Assembly: GCA_028689665.1 (NCBI GenBank)
Contig: JAQVCR010000008.1
Span: 1-64,000, forward strand
Source: Muribaculaceae bacterium
Lineage (GTDB): Bacteria; Bacteroidota; Bacteroidia; Bacteroidales; Muribaculaceae
DNA: 64,000 bases
Direction of reading: 5' to 3'
Both the position numbers and the translations under genes were made by a program. The notes beneath the pieces are model-generated. The model ran no database searches. It was not told where the DNA came from and worked only from the letters and a program-made list of their open reading frames with translations. Below are positions 52,466 through 61,907 of the stretch, in pieces (position 1 is the stretch's first letter; the number at the start of each line of letters is the position of its first letter).

Positions 52466-53116
52466 TTAAATCCATTTTTTCAAATTTCGTTCACCGAGGT
52501 GAAGATGCTTGTCGCTCGTCGTGGAGACGAACCGTGAACTCGGCACGCCATAAGCCGAATAGTCGGTAGCCTGCACAAGCGTTCCATTCTCATCGACCAC
52601 AGCTCTCACACTCCCTTGATTGTCGTGGATATAATAGTTGTAAGTGCTTTTTGAATGCTCAAAATCTATATCAACATATCCACCTTCGATATATAGTCGG
52701 CTAGGGATAGTGTTTTGAAATACGAAATCACCCTTGTTGATATACATTGAGTTTTTATAACCTTTAGGTCGAGTACTTCCACTGCTGACAGTGGAAATTA
52801 TAGCCTCGCTCTCATTTCTCCCATAATATGTGCCGTCGCTACGGTAATAGTTGGTTAACGTGCTTCCATCGCTAAAGGTAAACTTTACGGGCTGATTGTA
52901 ATAATCGTATGTAATCGAGGTTATTCCTCTTGCCGGGTCGGAAGTGCGATTACCGTTGGCATCATAAGTCCATCCACTGCTGTAATCGCCTTTGTCGATA
53001 CTCGGAATGTCGGGATATTTTCGGGTTGCATAATCGCCAAACTTATCTTCAGCCGAGAGACCGAAGCAAATAGGAACGAGAAGAAATAAAATTGGTATGA
53101 ATTTTTGAATATGCAT
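52466..53116 (-). pseudogene. toxin-less RHS core fragment with its own signal peptide (possible remnant or donor cassette)
   Basis: Core repeat homologous to the full-length RHS gene from YPDIPSIDKG to DKHLHLG, then abruptly ends ERNLKKWI*; lacks the GLEWQPMKGIYGYYNNARFRDA...GNP segment and any tip. N-terminus MHIQKFIPILFLLVPICFGLSA is a signal peptide not shared with the other copies. Confidence 0.7.
52494..53016 (-). repeat. RHS core repeat, copy 4
   Basis: DNA-level match to 57260-57933; shares variants with copy 3 (cgtgaactcggcacgcc, gtagcctgc). Confidence 0.9.
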
Positions 53117-53119
53117 TGT

Positions 53120-53656
53120 TTATATTTTTGAGGGTTCAAATAATTTGGTAATAAAATCAATTAACTCTTGCGAAGTTTCATATCGTTCTCTTCCTATATC
53201 TGTAAAGAAATAACCTATCCAAATAATCTCTTTTTCACCACTCTTGTTGTATATGACAAGTTGAACTCTTATATCATTATTATCTTTGCCAATCCAAAAT
53301 AGAGACTTTCCATCTGGTGTTATATTAGAATTTAGAAGTAACTCATTTGTGTTTATCCGAAGATTTTTCTTAAACTTCAATAAATTTAAATATGTTATCA
53401 ATATTTTGGATGAATCTTCCTTGATAATTTGAGTCTGTTTTCCTTCTGCTTTCCAATGACTTTCGAAATATTCACGCCCAATTGTAACTGGAGTAAATAG
53501 ATCCCAAGTTATATATTTTACCAATATGCTGTCCACACTTGATTCTTTTATTTTACCATAGCACTCCGAATTCCCGAATGCTACAATTATTAACGTCAAT
53601 ATTAATAAGATTTTCTTCATTATTAATTGTCTTTTAGTTGGAAATTTCAACCCCAC
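53120..53656 (-). CDS. small secreted protein; candidate immunity protein for the preceding RHS tip
   Basis: Signal peptide MKKILLILTLIIVAFGNSECYG; overlaps the 3' end of the RHS cassette 53634-54515. Confidence 0.6.
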   Translation of the reverse strand: MGLKFPTKRQLIMKKILLILTLIIVAFGNSECYGKIKESSVDSILVKYITWDLFTPVTIGREYFESHWKAEGKQTQIIKEDSSKILITYLNLLKFKKNLRINTNELLLNSNITPDGKSLFWIGKDNNDIRVQLVIYNKSGEKEIIWIGYFFTDIGRERYETSQELIDFITKLFEPSKI

Positions 53657-54515
53657 CAGTTATATCATCAAGATCTCTCGCTGTAGGTGAGGAAACATCT
53701 AAATAAGTACCAAAATGATTCTTACGGGTAGTTTCTCCCTCTTTTAGTTTACCTAATTTTTTAGCAACCTCTTGTTCGGATCCTGTAATTACTCGTTTTT
53801 CTTCTTTATTCCCATAAACAGAATCGGTTGTACCCTTATCTTTGGTTTGGATTTCTGTGGCATTTTCATTCTGATTGGCATGGTCTGATTCATGACTTAA
53901 GATTTCGGCAGGAGATAGTAAGTATGCATTTTCATCCGTTAAAATTCCCTTGGTAGGTGCCCACATAATAGTTCTAGTATTAGGGATAAACTTAGATTCT
54001 TTCCCTTCAACGATATGATAAGTAGTTTCCTGTGATTCTATGAGCTTGTCTATTTGTTCGCTACATCCATTTTCTTTAAGATATGTATAAGCAGTATTAT
54101 AATTATTTTTAAACTCATTTGTAGCTCCAGGAAAATCAACTTTCAACCCATCAGCATCTTTATAACGAATTGGATTTCCGGCGGCATAGTGATATGGTGT
54201 GAAAGGGTAATATTTTTCGGCTAGGGGGTCTTGTTGGTAGAATGTGCCGGCGAGGATTGCATCGCGGAAGCGGGCGTTGTTGTAATAGCCGTAAATACCT
54301 TTCATCGGTTGCCACTCAAGCCCGAGGTGAAGGTGCTTGTCGCTCGTCGTCGAGACGAACCGTGAACTCGGCACGCCATAAGCCGAATAGTCGGTAGCCT
54401 GCACAAGCGTTCCATTCTCATCGACCACAGCTCTCACACTCCCTTGATTGTCGTGGATATAATAGTTGTAAGTGTGGTTACTTTGTAGTAAACTTGTATC
54501 AATTAATATCTTCAT
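53634..54515 (-). CDS. truncated RHS cassette with metallopeptidase-like C-terminal tip (HESDH)
   Basis: Short N-terminus MKILIDTSLLQSN then RHS core TYNYYIHDNQGSVRAVVDENGT...YHYAAGNPIRYKDADGL; tip contains SPAEILSHESDHANQNE (HExxH). Confidence 0.8.
   Translation of the reverse strand: MKILIDTSLLQSNHTYNYYIHDNQGSVRAVVDENGTLVQATDYSAYGVPSSRFVSTTSDKHLHLGLEWQPMKGIYGYYNNARFRDAILAGTFYQQDPLAEKYYPFTPYHYAAGNPIRYKDADGLKVDFPGATNEFKNNYNTAYTYLKENGCSEQIDKLIESQETTYHIVEGKESKFIPNTRTIMWAPTKGILTDENAYLLSPAEILSHESDHANQNENATEIQTKDKGTTDSVYGNKEEKRVITGSEQEVAKKLGKLKEGETTRKNHFGTYLDVSSPTARDLDDITGGVEISN
54175..54474 (-). repeat. RHS core repeat, copy 3 (partial)
   Basis: Begins at the GNP delimiter region and stops abruptly at gtaagtg, where copies 1, 2 and 4 continue. 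Confidence 0.9.
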
Positions 54516-55024
54516 TTCTTCATATTAAAATAAATTTGCAAATTACCTATTGTGGTTTCTATTGGATAATATTTTCTATCTCTGTAAGTTAATAAATTAT
54601 TTACTAAAATATCCCACCTTTCTTTACTTAATTGTGGATTGTCGTTATGAAACAATTTATTCACGAACTTTAATACTTTAATTTTATCTTTTTCCCAATC
54701 ATATAGACGATATTCATTACCTATCTTTAATAGAACAAAGTCCCAACCATCATTTATCCCATAATAAGATACATAATATGCTTCAAATTCTGAATTTATA
54801 TTTATAATAGGAACATAACTCATATCTTTTGAGCATAAATCTCTTAAATTGAAACGGTCAGTAAGTTTTATTGATGATGTAACATATTCAGAATGTTCAG
54901 GCTCATAAAACCTAAAGACAGAATCCAAAGAATTATATATCGATTCATTATCTGTATTTAAAGGTTTCCCTAAACAGCTAAGTATGGATGTTATTAACAA
55001 TAACAAAAATAATTTATTTTTCAT
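54512..55024 (-). CDS. small lipoprotein; candidate immunity protein for the HEGTH RHS tip
   Basis: MKNKLFLLLLITSILSCLGKP (lipobox LSC); overlaps the upstream cassette (55014-55024) and the downstream cassette (54512-54515). Confidence 0.6.
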   Translation of the reverse strand: MKNKLFLLLLITSILSCLGKPLNTDNESIYNSLDSVFRFYEPEHSEYVTSSIKLTDRFNLRDLCSKDMSYVPIININSEFEAYYVSYYGINDGWDFVLLKIGNEYRLYDWEKDKIKVLKFVNKLFHNDNPQLSKERWDILVNNLLTYRDRKYYPIETTIGNLQIYFNMKK

Positions 55025-56183
55025 CTTGTATTTTTTCTAACTCTTTAATATGTTTTTTCTCATTAATATCAGGTAATACTTCTGTATCAGTACTGTTCTT
55101 GGCACTTGTTACGTTAGATTCTTTGTCAGTAGCATGCGTACCCTCATGTACACCTATAGCACCAAGTACATCTTCTTCAGAAAGATTATCATTTAAGATA
55201 TGATCACCTATATTTTTTCTTTGAATAATCGACTTATTGTAAATTACAATCTTAGCTGAATGAATACCAAACTTTTTATTGCCTTCGGATACTGTTTTGC
55301 CAAATTTATCTATCTCAGTATCATTATCAATCGTTATACTTATTTTATGAGGAGCTTCAATCATACTATTTAAAACATCTCTTCCAATTTTTGTTTTCAT
55401 CATTGCATTGCCAACCATTTTGATATCTGCTGTAGCATTTTTAGACCAACCATTCTTCACTGAATATGTAACTCTACGATTTTTGTTATCCACTAAATAC
55501 TTACCTGTGAGATCAATATATATACAAGGGTTTCCGGTGGCGTAGTGATATGGGGTGAAGGGGTAGTATTTTTCGGCTAGGGGGTCTTGCTGGTAGAATG
55601 TGCCGGCGAGGATTGCATCGCGGAAGCGGGCGTTGTTGTAATAGCCGTAAATACCTTTCATGGGCTGCCACTCAAGTCCGAGATGAAGATGCTTGTCGCT
55701 CGTCGTCGAGACGAACCGTGAGCTCGGCACACCATAAGCCGAATAGTCGGTAGCTTGCACAAGCGTTCCATTCTCATCAACTACAGCCCTCACGCTCCCC
55801 TGATTGTCATGGATATAATAGTTATAAGTACGTTTTGAATGTTCAAAATCTATATCAACATATCCACCTTCGATATATAGTCGGCTAGGGATAGTGTTTA
55901 GAAATACGAAATCACCCTTATTAATATACATTGAGCCTTTGAAAGAGCTTGCTTTAGTACTTCCACTATTGACAGTAGAAATTACAGCCTCACGCTCATT
56001 TCTCCCATAATACGTGCCGTCGCTACGGTAATAGTTGGTTAACGTGCTACCATCACTAAAGCTAAACTTTACGGGTTGGTTGTAATAATCGTATGTAATC
56101 GAGGTTATTCCTCTTGCAGGGTCGGAAGTGCGGTTACCGTTGGCATCATAAGTCCATCCACTACTGTAATTTTTATGGTTCAT
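55014..56183 (-). CDS. truncated RHS cassette with metallopeptidase-like C-terminal tip (HEGTH)
   Basis: MNHK then RHS core from NYSSGWTYDANGNRTSDPARG to YHYATGNPCIYIDLTGKY; tip contains VLGAIGVHEGTHATDKE (HExxH). Confidence 0.82.
   Translation of the reverse strand: MNHKNYSSGWTYDANGNRTSDPARGITSITYDYYNQPVKFSFSDGSTLTNYYRSDGTYYGRNEREAVISTVNSGSTKASSFKGSMYINKGDFVFLNTIPSRLYIEGGYVDIDFEHSKRTYNYYIHDNQGSVRAVVDENGTLVQATDYSAYGVPSSRFVSTTSDKHLHLGLEWQPMKGIYGYYNNARFRDAILAGTFYQQDPLAEKYYPFTPYHYATGNPCIYIDLTGKYLVDNKNRRVTYSVKNGWSKNATADIKMVGNAMMKTKIGRDVLNSMIEAPHKISITIDNDTEIDKFGKTVSEGNKKFGIHSAKIVIYNKSIIQRKNIGDHILNDNLSEEDVLGAIGVHEGTHATDKESNVTSAKNSTDTEVLPDINEKKHIKELEKIQDEK
55530..56170 (-). repeat. RHS core repeat, copy 2
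   Basis: DNA nearly identical by eye to copy 1 (57260-57933) over more than 600 bp. Confidence 0.92.
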
Positions 56184-56185
56184 AA

Positions 56186-56683
56186 TTATAAATTATCTTT
56201 AACTTTATAATAATACTTTGTACCACTAATTTTATAAATGTAATTTAATTCATTTTTAAAACTATTTTCATTAGGAATAGTATCGCATAATGTAAAATAG
56301 TAATAAACAATACTATAAAAAATGTAGTCTATTACTTTCTCTTGTTGCCCTTTTTTAATTGAGTTAAGATATTTTTTCAAATAGCAAATTTCATTTGGAT
56401 TTTTTTTATAATAATTATATAGGATGCTATCAAGTTCTTCATCAAATTCTTCATTTATGTGGTGAAGGGCATAACTAAACAAAGCCTTATAATCAGCATA
56501 ACTGCTATTTGTATTTTTAGCGAAGCTCGAATTAAGAGCTAAGTACTCAGCTCTTATACTATCTTCATTTGCTGATAGCTCTAATTGGATATCTTTATAA
56601 AACTCTAGTTTATTTGTTTGTCCTTCTGCCCTAATACTTAGAACAATGATGAACAGATGTATTATAATAATAATATTTTTCAT
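56186..56683 (-). CDS. small secreted protein; candidate immunity protein for the L,D-transpeptidase-like RHS tip
   Basis: Signal peptide MKNIIIIIHLFIIVLSIRAEGQ; lies 11 bp after the full-length RHS gene and 2 bp before the next cassette. Confidence 0.6.
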   Translation of the reverse strand: MKNIIIIIHLFIIVLSIRAEGQTNKLEFYKDIQLELSANEDSIRAEYLALNSSFAKNTNSSYADYKALFSYALHHINEEFDEELDSILYNYYKKNPNEICYLKKYLNSIKKGQQEKVIDYIFYSIVYYYFTLCDTIPNENSFKNELNYIYKISGTKYYYKVKDNL

Positions 56684-56694
56684 ATTTATTTACT

Positions 56695-59600
56695 CTAAGG
56701 ATTCGCAATTACTTCTGGGATATTGCCACCATTATATATAACAATCTTATATTTATCTTTTTCATTGTATTGAATGGGCTTATTCAAATCATCTTTAACT
56801 ACAAGTTCCCCTGCTTTTTCTTCTGAATCGGTAGCCTCCAATTGGTCGGTAACTGTTTTCATCTCTTTAATATCTTCATCAGACATTCTTATGCATCCAT
56901 GTGTGCCAACTAGTTCAGGTTTTTGTTTATTTCCTCCATGAGTATGCATCCCATTTCGGTCCTCACCTTCTCCTGAAATATAATCTTGTGCAAGGAGATC
57001 ATTAGGGCCATATGATTCAGTATTATATTTAGTTCCAACACCAGTTTTCCTCCATTCTAAAATCTTATAATTACCTTGAGGAGTATCTGCATTTTGTTTG
57101 TTCCTTTCTCTATAATTACCCCTAACCTTCACAACCGTTTGAAAAATAATATTATCCGATTTATTTGTAACTGTGTATAATGCATAGGGATGCTGACCCC
57201 TGTCGCTGGATGAACTAACTTTAACACTCCATAGCCCAGTGGGGTCTATGTCACGCATTGGATTTCCGGCAGCGTAGTGATAGAGGGTGAAGGGGTAGTA
57301 TTTTTCGGCTAGGGGGTCTTGCTGGTAGAATGTGCCGGCGAGGATTGCATCGCGGAAGCGGGCGTTGTTGTAATAGCCGTAAATACCTTTCATGGGCTGC
57401 CACTCAAGTCCGAGATGAAGATGCTTGTCGCTCGTCGTCGAGACGAACCGTGAGCTCGGCACACCATAAGCCGAATAGTCGGTAGCTTGCACAAGCGTTC
57501 CATTCTCATCAACTACAGCCCTCACGCTCCCCTGATTGTCATGGATATAATAGTTATAAGTACGTTTTGAATGTTCAAAATCTATATCAACATATCCACC
57601 TTCGATATATAGTCGGCTAGGGATAGTGTTTAGAAATACGAAATCACCCTTATTAATATACATTGAGCCTTTGAAAGAGCTTGCTTTAGTACTTCCACTA
57701 TTGACAGTAGAAATTACAGCCTCACGCTCATTTCTCCCATAATACGTGCCGTCGCTACGGTAATAGTTGGTTAACGTGCTACCATCACTAAAGCTAAACT
57801 TTACGGGTTGGTTGTAATAATCGTATGTAATCGAGGTTATTCCTCTTGCAGGGTCGGAAGTGCGATTACCGTTGGCATCATAAGTCCATCCACTGCTGTA
57901 ATTCCCTTTATCGATACTCGGAATGTCGGGATAGAGTCCGTCGGCAGGTTTGCTTTCGCCTATCGAAGCAATCTGATTGCCATTATAATCGAGGCTGAGA
58001 TACTGAACAGGATTGGCATTAACCTTTCCTCTACTTATAATAACGGGATTCCCATTACGATCGTAAGAGAAGCCCTCGTTGAATACTGAATTGACATCTA
58101 CAGAGCTCTTCGACTCAACAGAGATGAGTCGGTCAAAACCATCATATCTATATCCTACTGAAAGAGAGTCAATACTCAAATCATTGTCCACGCTTGTAAA
58201 TGTCATCGCAGAAGGAGAGCCATTCCATCGTGGCGCAGTGCCGGTGTTATTGGTGTTGTAATACAAAGATTGTGTGAATAGTGGAGACTTGATTGCTGTC
58301 ATCCAATTCCTTAGATTATACTGATAATCAATGTCGCAACCTTTATCTGTACATTTCCTCGGTTGTATCTTTTTGTGCGTCAATCTTGCGACATTGTCAT
58401 ATCTGTTTTCATACAATATAGTCCAACTGTCATTATTAAATCTGTGTCTTGCTGATACAGGCATTCCCCAATTATCGTAACTGTAGGAATATTCACTTGC
58501 ATAATGAACATCTAAGTCACTACTGTTCAATACAATTTTCTTATTAGTTAAGTCGCCTACAAAATTATACTTATAATGTGTTGTAACATTATCTAATAAG
58601 TCAAGGTCATAATCACATCCTACTACAATCCTTTTTCTATCGTCGTAACGATAAGATGACATTATCACATACCACTCGCCCCAAACGGCTTTTCCTGTAA
58701 GCAAGCCTGTCGCATTATCCATTCCCGATGAATAACCGCTTTCAAATGTTTGATTTGTCCTGACTATATTATGCCAAAAATCGTAGTTGTCATAAAAATA
58801 TGAAACGAGAGGCTTAAAGTTGGAGATACCACAAGTATCGGTATAAAACAGCTTGGAATCGTTATTTATGCTGGCTTGCAAACTTTCAACAGCTATTTTG
58901 TCTTTCCACTTCTCTTGCAGAGACAACCGCGTCTCGTTTGTGAAAGTGGCTATACCCTCTACAGCCTTTCTTAGACTTCCGTCAAATTTTGTAACAAACC
59001 ACTTATTCTCTTTCCTCATATTTCCGTCTTGACGGAATATTACATTATCAAGTTTATCATATATATAATATTCAGGTTCAGCCCCGGGCAGACGTTTTTC
59101 AACCAATCGACCATAATTGTCGTAAGAATAAAAATAACACAATTTTCTTATTGTCGTACTATTGCAGATACCATTACCTTGTGATACATAAATATTTGAT
59201 GCTTCAGGTGATAGCACATAAATCAATTGTCCTATTTTATTATATACATAATAGGTATCTAAGTTAATGCTTTCATCACACTTCCGTTCCAAAATCAATC
59301 TTTTGTCTCGGTCAAAGAATTTAATTATCCTCATATTATCCTCATCTACGACCTCCTCGTAATGTAACGTGCCGTCGCCATATCCATTGTTAAGTTTCAG
59401 CAAACCATCATTAGTGATGTCAAATCTGGCGCATCCATAATATCGGTCATGGTAGCTGTTCAGACCTCTATGTTTCGATATATATTTGTTATTGTCCCTC
59501 CATGCTTTACCCGGACTACGCTTATTCATCTCCATCACTTCCGGAGTTTGCGTGTATTCTGTTTCTGTATAAGGATATAGATCTCCATAAAATCCGGTTG

Positions 59601-59940
59601 CAGTTGTTTTTACTGATTCCGTAGCTAAAAAGCTGCCATCACACTGTGGACCTTCTACCGGAAGCCATTCGCGATATTTATTTCCGGCACAGTCATATTC
59701 TATAGCAGTATGAATGTCCTGAACCGCCCAACTAGAAGCCCCTTTTACATTTTGTATAGGACGTCCCAAGCCATCATAATATGTAACAGTATTTCTGGCA
59801 AAATCATAATCAGAAATAGGGTTACTGGTAAATCGTTCCAAAAACAAAGATTCTCTCACATAATTGCATGATTTGGTTTGTCCGGATATGTTATATATTG
59901 AGCAAATAATGAATATTATCACGGTAAAAGTTGACCTCAT
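56695..59940 (-). CDS. secreted RHS repeat protein (DUF6443-type N-terminus) with L,D-transpeptidase (YkuD)-like C-terminal tip
   Basis: Signal peptide; TVTYYDGLGRPIQNVKGASS; many YD repeats; core ending YHYAAGNPMRDIDPTGLW; tip with GMHTHGGNKQKPELVGTHGCIRMSDEDIKEM, matching the HG-x(n)-[ST]HGC[IV]R YkuD catalytic motif. Confidence 0.9.
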   Translation of the reverse strand: MRSTFTVIIFIICSIYNISGQTKSCNYVRESLFLERFTSNPISDYDFARNTVTYYDGLGRPIQNVKGASSWAVQDIHTAIEYDCAGNKYREWLPVEGPQCDGSFLATESVKTTATGFYGDLYPYTETEYTQTPEVMEMNKRSPGKAWRDNNKYISKHRGLNSYHDRYYGCARFDITNDGLLKLNNGYGDGTLHYEEVVDEDNMRIIKFFDRDKRLILERKCDESINLDTYYVYNKIGQLIYVLSPEASNIYVSQGNGICNSTTIRKLCYFYSYDNYGRLVEKRLPGAEPEYYIYDKLDNVIFRQDGNMRKENKWFVTKFDGSLRKAVEGIATFTNETRLSLQEKWKDKIAVESLQASINNDSKLFYTDTCGISNFKPLVSYFYDNYDFWHNIVRTNQTFESGYSSGMDNATGLLTGKAVWGEWYVIMSSYRYDDRKRIVVGCDYDLDLLDNVTTHYKYNFVGDLTNKKIVLNSSDLDVHYASEYSYSYDNWGMPVSARHRFNNDSWTILYENRYDNVARLTHKKIQPRKCTDKGCDIDYQYNLRNWMTAIKSPLFTQSLYYNTNNTGTAPRWNGSPSAMTFTSVDNDLSIDSLSVGYRYDGFDRLISVESKSSVDVNSVFNEGFSYDRNGNPVIISRGKVNANPVQYLSLDYNGNQIASIGESKPADGLYPDIPSIDKGNYSSGWTYDANGNRTSDPARGITSITYDYYNQPVKFSFSDGSTLTNYYRSDGTYYGRNEREAVISTVNSGSTKASSFKGSMYINKGDFVFLNTIPSRLYIEGGYVDIDFEHSKRTYNYYIHDNQGSVRAVVDENGTLVQATDYSAYGVPSSRFVSTTSDKHLHLGLEWQPMKGIYGYYNNARFRDAILAGTFYQQDPLAEKYYPFTLYHYAAGNPMRDIDPTGLWSVKVSSSSDRGQHPYALYTVTNKSDNIIFQTVVKVRGNYRERNKQNADTPQGNYKILEWRKTGVGTKYNTESYGPNDLLAQDYISGEGEDRNGMHTHGGNKQKPELVGTHGCIRMSDEDIKEMKTVTDQLEATDSEEKAGELVVKDDLNKPIQYNEKDKYKIVIYNGGNIPEVIANP
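57260..57933 (-). repeat. RHS core repeat, copy 1 (in the full-length gene)
   Basis: Reference copy for the other three core repeats. Confidence 0.92.
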
Positions 59941-60196: not shown

Positions 60197-60628
60197 ATGA
60201 ATGATTCTTCAATACACCCTATCTCTAAAAACGAGAATATTAAGCTGCCTATACTCGAAGGTATGATTCCTGCCGGCTTTCCAAGCCCGCTACAAGGCTT
60301 GGTACAAGATGCCATTGACTTAAATAGAGAATTAATCGACCACCCGGCTGCTACCTTCTGCGCTAGAGTTACCGGAAATTCTATGATAGAATCGGGAATA
60401 TCCGATGGTGATTTGCTCATTATAGATAAGTCGCTCGACCCTCAAGACAATTCTATTGCCGTGTGTTTTATTGATGGAGAATTTACGCTCAAACGCATCT
60501 CGATACGTAAAAATGGTGTTTTCCTTGTTCCCGCTAATCCTAAATATAAAGAAATAGCCATAAATGAAGATAGTAATTTTCAAGTATGGGGTATAGTAAC
60601 ATTTATCATAAAATCGGTGAATAGATAA
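60197..60628 (+). CDS. umuD: UmuD-like translesion error-prone DNA polymerase V autoproteolytic subunit (S24 family)
   Basis: GMIPAGFPSPLQ (cleavage region AG), ARVTGNSMIESGISDGDLLIIDKS, GEFTLKRI; adjacent umuC. Confidence 0.94.
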   Translation: MNDSSIHPISKNENIKLPILEGMIPAGFPSPLQGLVQDAIDLNRELIDHPAATFCARVTGNSMIESGISDGDLLIIDKSLDPQDNSIAVCFIDGEFTLKRISIRKNGVFLVPANPKYKEIAINEDSNFQVWGIVTFIIKSVNR

Positions 60629-60647
60629 TTTTTCACTCTATTATATC

Positions 60648-61907
60648 ATGCGTGCCTTAGTCGATTGCAACAATTTTTTCGTTTCGTGTGAACGAGTTTT
60701 TGCGCCTCAATTAAACGGATTACCCGTAGTCGTACTATCGGGTAACGATGGCTGTATAATAGCTCGCAGCAACGAAGCTAAAGCACTTGGAATTCCTATG
60801 GGTGCGCCTGTGTTTAAATGGCGCAATATTATCGAGAGCGAAAATATTAAATGCTTATCGGGTAACCATGCCCTTTATCTTGATATGTCTCGTCGTATTA
60901 TGACTTTACTATCCGAAATGGTAGAAAACCTTACTGTATATTCTGTCGATGAAGCTTTTTTTCAAATTCCAGAAGATTATTCCGAAAACGATTTATTCTT
61001 AATAGCTAAGCGTATAGAGAAATGTACCGGAGTTCCGGTAAGTATTGGCGCAAGCAAATCTCAAGTATTGGCAAAATTAGCTTCTCACATCGCTAAAAAA
61101 GAACGTCTTAAAACGACACACAGCTATATCCTTAACGATAAATCTGAAGTACACTGTCGCCTAAAGAACACTCCTATCGGCGACATCTGGGGTATAGGTA
61201 GAAAAATGAATGCCGCTCTTTCTGAAATTAATATTAATACAGCCTACGACTTTGCAATGCTGCCCAAGAAATGGGTTAAAGATCGTTTTTCTATCACTGC
61301 CGAACGAACTTGGCTCGGAATTCACGGCATAGATTGCGAAAACGCTATCCCGGTCGACTCGCAAAGACAGAGCATTACTGTGTCGCAAACTTTTTCTCAC
61401 CCTGTCCGAAATTACGTGGAATTAAGCGAAGCTATATCTTCTTTCGCAACTTCATGTTCCGAAAAACTTAGAAATGAAAAGAAAATAGCAACCAGAATAA
61501 TGATTTATATCGCCGGTGATCGATTCAACACTAGCGAAGCGCAATATTCTAATTCTGCTACTGCTAATATTTCTTATCCTACAAGTAGCACTATCGAGCT
61601 GGTGGAATATGCCACAAAGCTACTAAAGGGTATTTATCGTAATGAATTTGCTTATAAAAAAGCCGGGGTAATATTGACCGAACTTATACCTGCATCTAAT
61701 CTACAACTCAATCTTTTCAATCCCACCGACACTGCTAAGCACTCTAAATTAATGTCGGCTGTCGACAAAATTAACAACAACTGCCCTAACATATTAAAAC
61801 TAGCAGCTAACGGAATTGATAACGAATGGCGACCTCGATGTGCAAATAAATCTAAAGAATACACCACTTCTTTTAAAGATATATTAACTATCAATTGCAA
61901 TATTTAG
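60648..61907 (+). CDS. umuC: Y-family DNA polymerase V catalytic subunit UmuC
   Basis: ALVDCNNFFVSCERVFAPQLNGLPVVVLSGNDGCIIARSNEAKALGIPMGAPVFK, YSVDEAFFQI, GIGRKMNAAL. Confidence 0.96.
   Translation: MRALVDCNNFFVSCERVFAPQLNGLPVVVLSGNDGCIIARSNEAKALGIPMGAPVFKWRNIIESENIKCLSGNHALYLDMSRRIMTLLSEMVENLTVYSVDEAFFQIPEDYSENDLFLIAKRIEKCTGVPVSIGASKSQVLAKLASHIAKKERLKTTHSYILNDKSEVHCRLKNTPIGDIWGIGRKMNAALSEININTAYDFAMLPKKWVKDRFSITAERTWLGIHGIDCENAIPVDSQRQSITVSQTFSHPVRNYVELSEAISSFATSCSEKLRNEKKIATRIMIYIAGDRFNTSEAQYSNSATANISYPTSSTIELVEYATKLLKGIYRNEFAYKKAGVILTELIPASNLQLNLFNPTDTAKHSKLMSAVDKINNNCPNILKLAANGIDNEWRPRCANKSKEYTTSFKDILTINCNI

Follow-up and report, generated by a model that had tools for sequence, protein, structure and literature searches.

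A secreted RHS gene of a Muribaculaceae bacterium followed by a row of probable tip/immunity cassettes

The DNA analyzed here, a window of 64,000 nucleotides (nt) from a Muribaculaceae bacterium (assembly GCA_028689665.1, contig JAQVCR010000008.1, positions 1 to 64,000), carries on its minus strand a row of genes that begins with one for a secreted RHS protein. We consider it probable that this row represents a polymorphic RHS toxin locus, with the active C-terminal tip on the Sec-exported full-length protein and with the downstream genes being tip/immunity cassettes displaced by recombination in the RHS core. The initial annotation had described a full-length RHS gene, a chain of alternating immunity-like and RHS-tip genes, and a core fragment; a check of the open reading frames (ORFs) confirmed all seven at their noted positions, consecutive on the minus strand over ~7.5 kb from 59940 to 52466. 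In the order of transcription, the features are as follows.

56695 to 59940, minus strand: full-length secreted RHS protein, 1081 amino acids (aa), with signal peptide, DUF6443, RHS repeats, core, and YkuD tip
56698 to 57231, minus strand: tip 1, YkuD-like C-terminal domain of the full-length protein (YkuD at aa 947-1027, HGCIRM catalytic motif intact)
56186 to 56683, minus strand: putative immunity gene 1, 165 aa, with signal peptide
55014 to 56183, minus strand: orphan cassette 2, core and tip 2, 389 aa, with its own ATG and no signal peptide
55017 to 55502, minus strand: tip 2, HExxH metallopeptidase-like domain with an HEGTH motif
54512 to 55024, minus strand: putative immunity gene 2, 170 aa, with lipoprotein-like signal
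53634 to 54515, minus strand: orphan cassette 3, core and tip 3, 293 aa, no signal peptide
53637 to 54146, minus strand: tip 3, Peptidase_M91-like HExxH domain
53120 to 53620, minus strand: putative immunity gene 3, 166 aa from ATG 53620, with signal peptide
52466 to 53116, minus strand: terminal core stub, signal-peptide-like leader and core, no tip
57285 to 57864 in the full-length gene and 55553 to 56132 in orphan 2, minus strand: mismatch-free stretch of 580 nt, from sequence comparison

The core recurs in this row far above chance. It is 98.9% identical over 644 nt between the full-length gene and orphan 2, including the perfect 580-nt stretch, whereas the full-length core matches that of the stub at 91.2% over 524 nt and that of orphan 3 at 91.5% over 317 nt; orphan 3 and the stub, in turn, are 98.7% identical over 153 nt. 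The window thus holds two core types, and the cores flanking tip 1 and its immunity gene were recently one sequence: recombination between the cores of the full-length gene and orphan 2 is recent. For both tip-bearing orphans, core identity ends at the GNPxxxxD junction, where the initial annotation had placed the divergence of all truncated cassettes; the last fragment departs from the full-length gene earlier, inside the core, between HLHLG and ERNLKKWI. In relatives, where cores were compared by direct blastn, within-array cores are mostly 80-99% identical, and the best match of a stub in another genome is mostly 65-79%.

The relatives, ~80 loci in ~40 genomes, belong to the same family as the window's genome. 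A relative of the window's RHS body is encoded in 132 of 397 sampled family genomes (about one-third), the layout of a full-length gene plus orphans is found again in many relatives, and a scan of genome contigs returned one distant Bacteroides locus. Eighteen tip families have more than one member; full-length genes and orphans occur together in 10 of these families, and in 9 of the 10 they do so across genomes. Tips 2 and 3, orphans in the window, belong to families with members on full-length RHS genes of other genera: the tip 2 family is represented by a full-length RHS in G097 and by short genes in G172 (an orphan) and G288, and the tip 3 family by a full-length RHS in G107 and by orphans in G071 and G108. 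The full-length RHS of G299 carries a homologue of tip 1 that is 47-50% identical, while its core is only 32% identical. The closest full-length body to that of the window (G020, 53%) bears an unrelated lipase-like tip, and the full-length RHS genes of G128 and G102 share 95.3% identity along a stretch of 3644 nt that ends at the tip junction, and their tips are unrelated; in both comparisons a variable C-terminal domain stands on a conserved body, and downstream fragments sharing the core carry C-terminal domains present on full-length genes elsewhere. Other tips in relatives include AHH nuclease and Lipase_3 domains. Between pairs of full-length proteins the median body identity is 28% with homologous tips versus 27% without, so that the body does not predict the tip. 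On this comparative evidence, RHS tips have been exchanged between genomes, in line with the tip-switching array proposed in the initial annotation.

Several observations weigh against a locus built by core recombination. No relative of immunity gene 1 was detected, and most of the compared genomes are draft assemblies whose contigs break at repeats. The downstream flanks of G128 and G102 are nonsyntenic, and their swap is therefore no clean single-locus exchange. Core similarity does not drop steadily with distance from the full-length gene in L045 and L047; gene conversion therefore also acts.

It is conceivable that the row consists of relics, i.e., decaying tandem duplications of the RHS 3' end with no selective role. 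The terminal stubs of L046, L057, L062, and L071, in which a truncated tip remains, and the many stubs that break off inside the core are in keeping with decay. We nevertheless regard this explanation as improbable. The tips are unrelated beside cores that are 90-99% identical, and plain duplication and divergence are therefore insufficient; the reading frames and HExxH motifs of the orphan tips are intact; in other genera, some of these tips have homologous immunity genes beside them; and the ratio of nonsynonymous to synonymous substitution rates (dN/dS) between the stub and the full-length gene is 0.12.

The full-length protein has RHS repeats and an associated core ahead of a variable C-terminal domain, the arrangement that marks RHS polymorphic toxins. 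Its Pfam matches above cut-off are DUF6443 (1.7e-22), RHS_repeat (1.3e-8), and YkuD (1e-5); Rhs_assc_core (1.1e-6) falls just under the cut-off and is above it in relatives. A literature search on DUF6443 found no paper naming the domain. The N terminus is signal-peptide-like and followed by DUF6443, with no PAAR match, unlike type VI secretion system (T6SS) Rhs effectors. No TANFOR domain (TIGR02542) is present among the NCBIfam matches, Pfam and NCBIfam gave no C-terminal sorting domain of the type IX secretion system (T9SS), and no PDB chain matches the full protein. Tip 1 is L,D-transpeptidase-like and is predicted to modify peptidoglycan.

Tips 2 and 3 are two different HExxH metallopeptidase-like domains. 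In two relatives of tip 2, of which one sits on a full-length RHS, the H, E, and H are unchanged. In tip 3 the H-E-x-x-H is invariant among relatives, and the likeness to Peptidase_M91 is weak (E 0.0054, and 4e-5 for the relative in L079, both below cut-off) yet consistent across four family members. Single-sequence structure models of tips 2 and 3 were unusable, with mean predicted local distance difference test (pLDDT) scores of 34 and 38.

Behind each tip in the window lies a small gene with an export signal. A homologue of immunity gene 2 is present after the tip 2 gene of both G097 (E 3.9e-5) and G172 (7.7e-4), and G071 has a homologue of immunity gene 3 (E 4e-6) after its tip 3 gene, so that both accompany the same tips elsewhere; immunity gene 1 has no family match above cut-off. 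Each of the three immunity-like proteins has an N-terminal export signal, which in the second is lipoprotein-like. The same tendency is seen in the relatives' loci, where a simple hydrophobicity rule rather than SignalP found export-like signals in 68 of 86 first genes after tips versus 92 of 255 other genes, and where the toxin-immunity gap is ≤30 nt in 81 of 92 cases. Exported immunity-like proteins would fit toxins that work in the cell envelope.

The junctions within the row are tight. By sequence, gaps of 11 nt (RHS stop to immunity gene 1) and 2 nt (immunity gene 1 stop to orphan 2) are followed by overlaps of 11 nt (orphan 2 and immunity gene 2) and 4 nt (immunity gene 2 and orphan 3, ATGA), and then by gaps of 13 nt (orphan 3 to immunity gene 3) and 3 nt (immunity gene 3 to the stub). 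Of the overlapping starts and stops listed in the initial annotation, those at 55024/55014 and 54515/54512 hold; the pair 56186/56183 is the 2-nt gap, and 53656/53634 depends on a GTG start. We set the start of immunity gene 3 at ATG 53620 instead, because this gives the protein a proper signal peptide, and the 13-nt gap follows from that choice. The minus strand showed no terminator-like site; this and the tight spacing support the arrangement of the seven genes as one operon, as the initial annotation had it, and the cassettes may thus be expressed together. In a sigma-70 scan, promoter-like sites were no more numerous than in shuffled sequence.

The orphans of the window and of its relatives have their own translation starts, and the start, taken as the nearest one, is ≤30 nt from the upstream stop in 31 of 54 cases. 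Among 60 orphans, 22 have an export-like leader, as do 7 of 23 stubs, but none of 534 windows at internal methionines of full-length proteins. Compared with ordinary genes, orphans are not enriched in signal peptides (37% versus 36%); the enrichment holds only against internal RHS starts.

Both the leaders and the starts adjoining an upstream stop would be expected if the orphans were active small secreted toxins, mini-RHS proteins made alongside the full-length protein so that several toxins are released together. We think this unlikely. Orphans 2 and 3 of the window lack an export leader, which only the tip-less stub has, and the leader rate in the family merely equals that of ordinary genes of these loci (36%). 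Moreover, the RHS shell of known Rhs proteins encloses the toxin, and the orphans are fragments without most of that shell.

In L041, L045, and L058, the orphan leader resembles that of the full-length RHS encoded in the same genome. The full-length RHS genes of many relatives have two genes next to them, one for an RHS-repeat protein of ~1000 aa and one for a protein of ~400 aa that bears a T9SS sorting tail.

L049:432-4556, L046:123-4650, L042:3655-8264, and others: partner-pair loci, possible export partner pair

The leader of the orphan at L076:9147-10031 resembles the signal peptide of the T9SS-tail partner gene at L049:432, which suggests that orphans may acquire export signals from neighboring genes. 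No full-length copy of the tail-bearing partner was found in the window's genome (a 2.3-Mb draft, 87% complete), which encodes many proteins with T9SS sorting tails, in keeping with its place in the Bacteroidota. Export of the RHS protein by the T9SS would be a reasonable, if unproved, route.

The tip-less core closes the row in the window and recurs in this position in relatives: a stub is last in 15 of 18 stub-holding arrays (7.2 expected, p 1.5e-4), first in two, and mid-array in one. Of 27 full-length genes, 17 are followed by a core repeat at a distance of ≤3.5 kb and 2 are preceded by one; in G102 the repeat is reduced to 88 nt immediately past the immunity gene. Leader and core form one repeat common to stubs and orphans, which begins at the start codon or ahead of it in L045, L046, L047, L057, and L087. 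The low dN/dS of the window's stub argues against a long-decaying pseudogene, although the late arrival of a divergent core may also account for it. Because several stubs retain tip pieces, erosion of the oldest cassette would explain many of them.

A homology-arm role in cassette capture, itself possible, would look the same as erosion, and we tentatively entertain the possibility that the terminal stub is such an arm, kept as an acceptor site, and not an eroded cassette. Its place at the 3' end, the repeat shared with the orphans from the leader onward, the low dN/dS, and the minimal repeat behind the immunity gene of G102 all agree with this. However, some stubs hold tip pieces, they break off at very different points of the core, they do not always come last, and erosion alone would place them there if the oldest cassette is last. 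A broader scheme, in which tip/immunity cassettes move between direct repeats of the core (n cassettes, n + 1 cores), the start-bearing core is the acceptor, capture needs no recombinase, and signal-bearing orphans are secreted as mini-toxins, seems doubtful to us.

Tip-less stubs also occur alone, in L077, L097, L056, and L083. The solitary stubs at L077:5922-6242 and L097:5805-6038 occupy the same syntenic place in two species and are followed by a repeat-rich gene that by eye is leucine-rich-surface-protein-like. At L056:5146-6855, a tip-less stub has a small exported gene on either side but no toxin remains, and the arrangement resembles an immunity-only remnant. Elsewhere in the window's genome, another short core, whose tip is broken off (MDVWEINYQGEIVK...), is found in L005 (G000 contig C32, 10929-11165).

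Displacement by core recombination could proceed as follows. New tips would arrive through homologous recombination in the core, with incoming core-tip-immunity-core DNA placing the new tip on the body and shifting the previous one downstream together with its immunity gene and a copy of the core. If the tips are toxic, the exported immunity genes retained in the same row may protect the envelope against neighbors that use older tips. The terminal tip-less core would most simply be the eroded oldest cassette, and with it in place, core would lie on either side of each tip/immunity pair.

Upstream, a UmuD/UmuC-like pair, recognized by eye (60197-61907, plus strand), diverges from the RHS gene across a shared intergenic stretch of ~250 nt.

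Several known systems share parts of this arrangement. The TANFOR toxins of Bacteroidetes (Jana 2020, PMC7073777) also combine a Sec signal, a polymorphic toxin end, and downstream immunity, and they have been linked with T9SS substrates, whose genes lie nearby, as they do here in relatives; the body described here is instead of the DUF6443/RHS type, with no TANFOR domain found. In the T6SS modules of Vibrio cholerae (Kirchberger 2017, PMC5361080), old modules are likewise displaced by new ones and old immunity is retained, but the old effectors are replaced, whereas here the tip coding sequence is retained too. The rAID systems of gut Bacteroidales (PMC12247911) are also immunity-gene arrays in Bacteroidota; they are recombinase-associated and hold orphan immunity only, while here toxins remain and the row has no recombinase ORF. 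Zhang 2012 (PMC3482391) surveyed toxin cassettes and describes standalone cassettes beside a full toxin and HExxH Tox-MPTase families with RHS in Bacteroidetes; the parts of the survey consulted give no account of the array form seen here.

The closest counterparts are the enterobacterial CdiA-CT/CdiI and Rhs-CT/RhsI arrays (Poole 2011, PMC3150448; Koskiniemi 2014, PMC3967940), where CT denotes the C-terminal toxin region. There, too, a full-length gene is followed by core-bearing CT/immunity modules, orphan CTs occur on full-length proteins elsewhere, and recombination acts on homologous cores, which in Salmonella span 522 bp at 95%. Orphan immunity genes are cotranscribed in these arrays (PMC3150448, PMC3967940), and protection against neighbors by coexpressed orphan immunities, the role that the initial annotation had suggested for stored immunity, was already published for contact-dependent inhibition (CDI) (PMC3150448). 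The basic principle of orphan CT/immunity arrays is therefore established for the CDI and Rhs loci of enterobacteria. Their orphan CTs generally lack starts and export signals (PMC3150448, PMC3967940), a usual though not strictly defining state from which the present locus departs: here, orphans have starts, often beside the preceding stop, an export-like leader is seen in about one-third of the family's orphans, and arrays often end in a tip-less core. What is new is the DUF6443-type secreted RHS setting, the orphans with their own starts, and the recurrent 3' tip-less core. The locus and its relatives show that the exchange of tips through core recombination, known in detail from enterobacteria, also runs in a Sec-exported RHS class of Bacteroidota. 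With translated orphans and export-tagged immunity proteins, whether the orphans are silent spares or working toxins becomes a testable question; the 95% identical pair with different tips, G128 and G102, offers a natural experiment.

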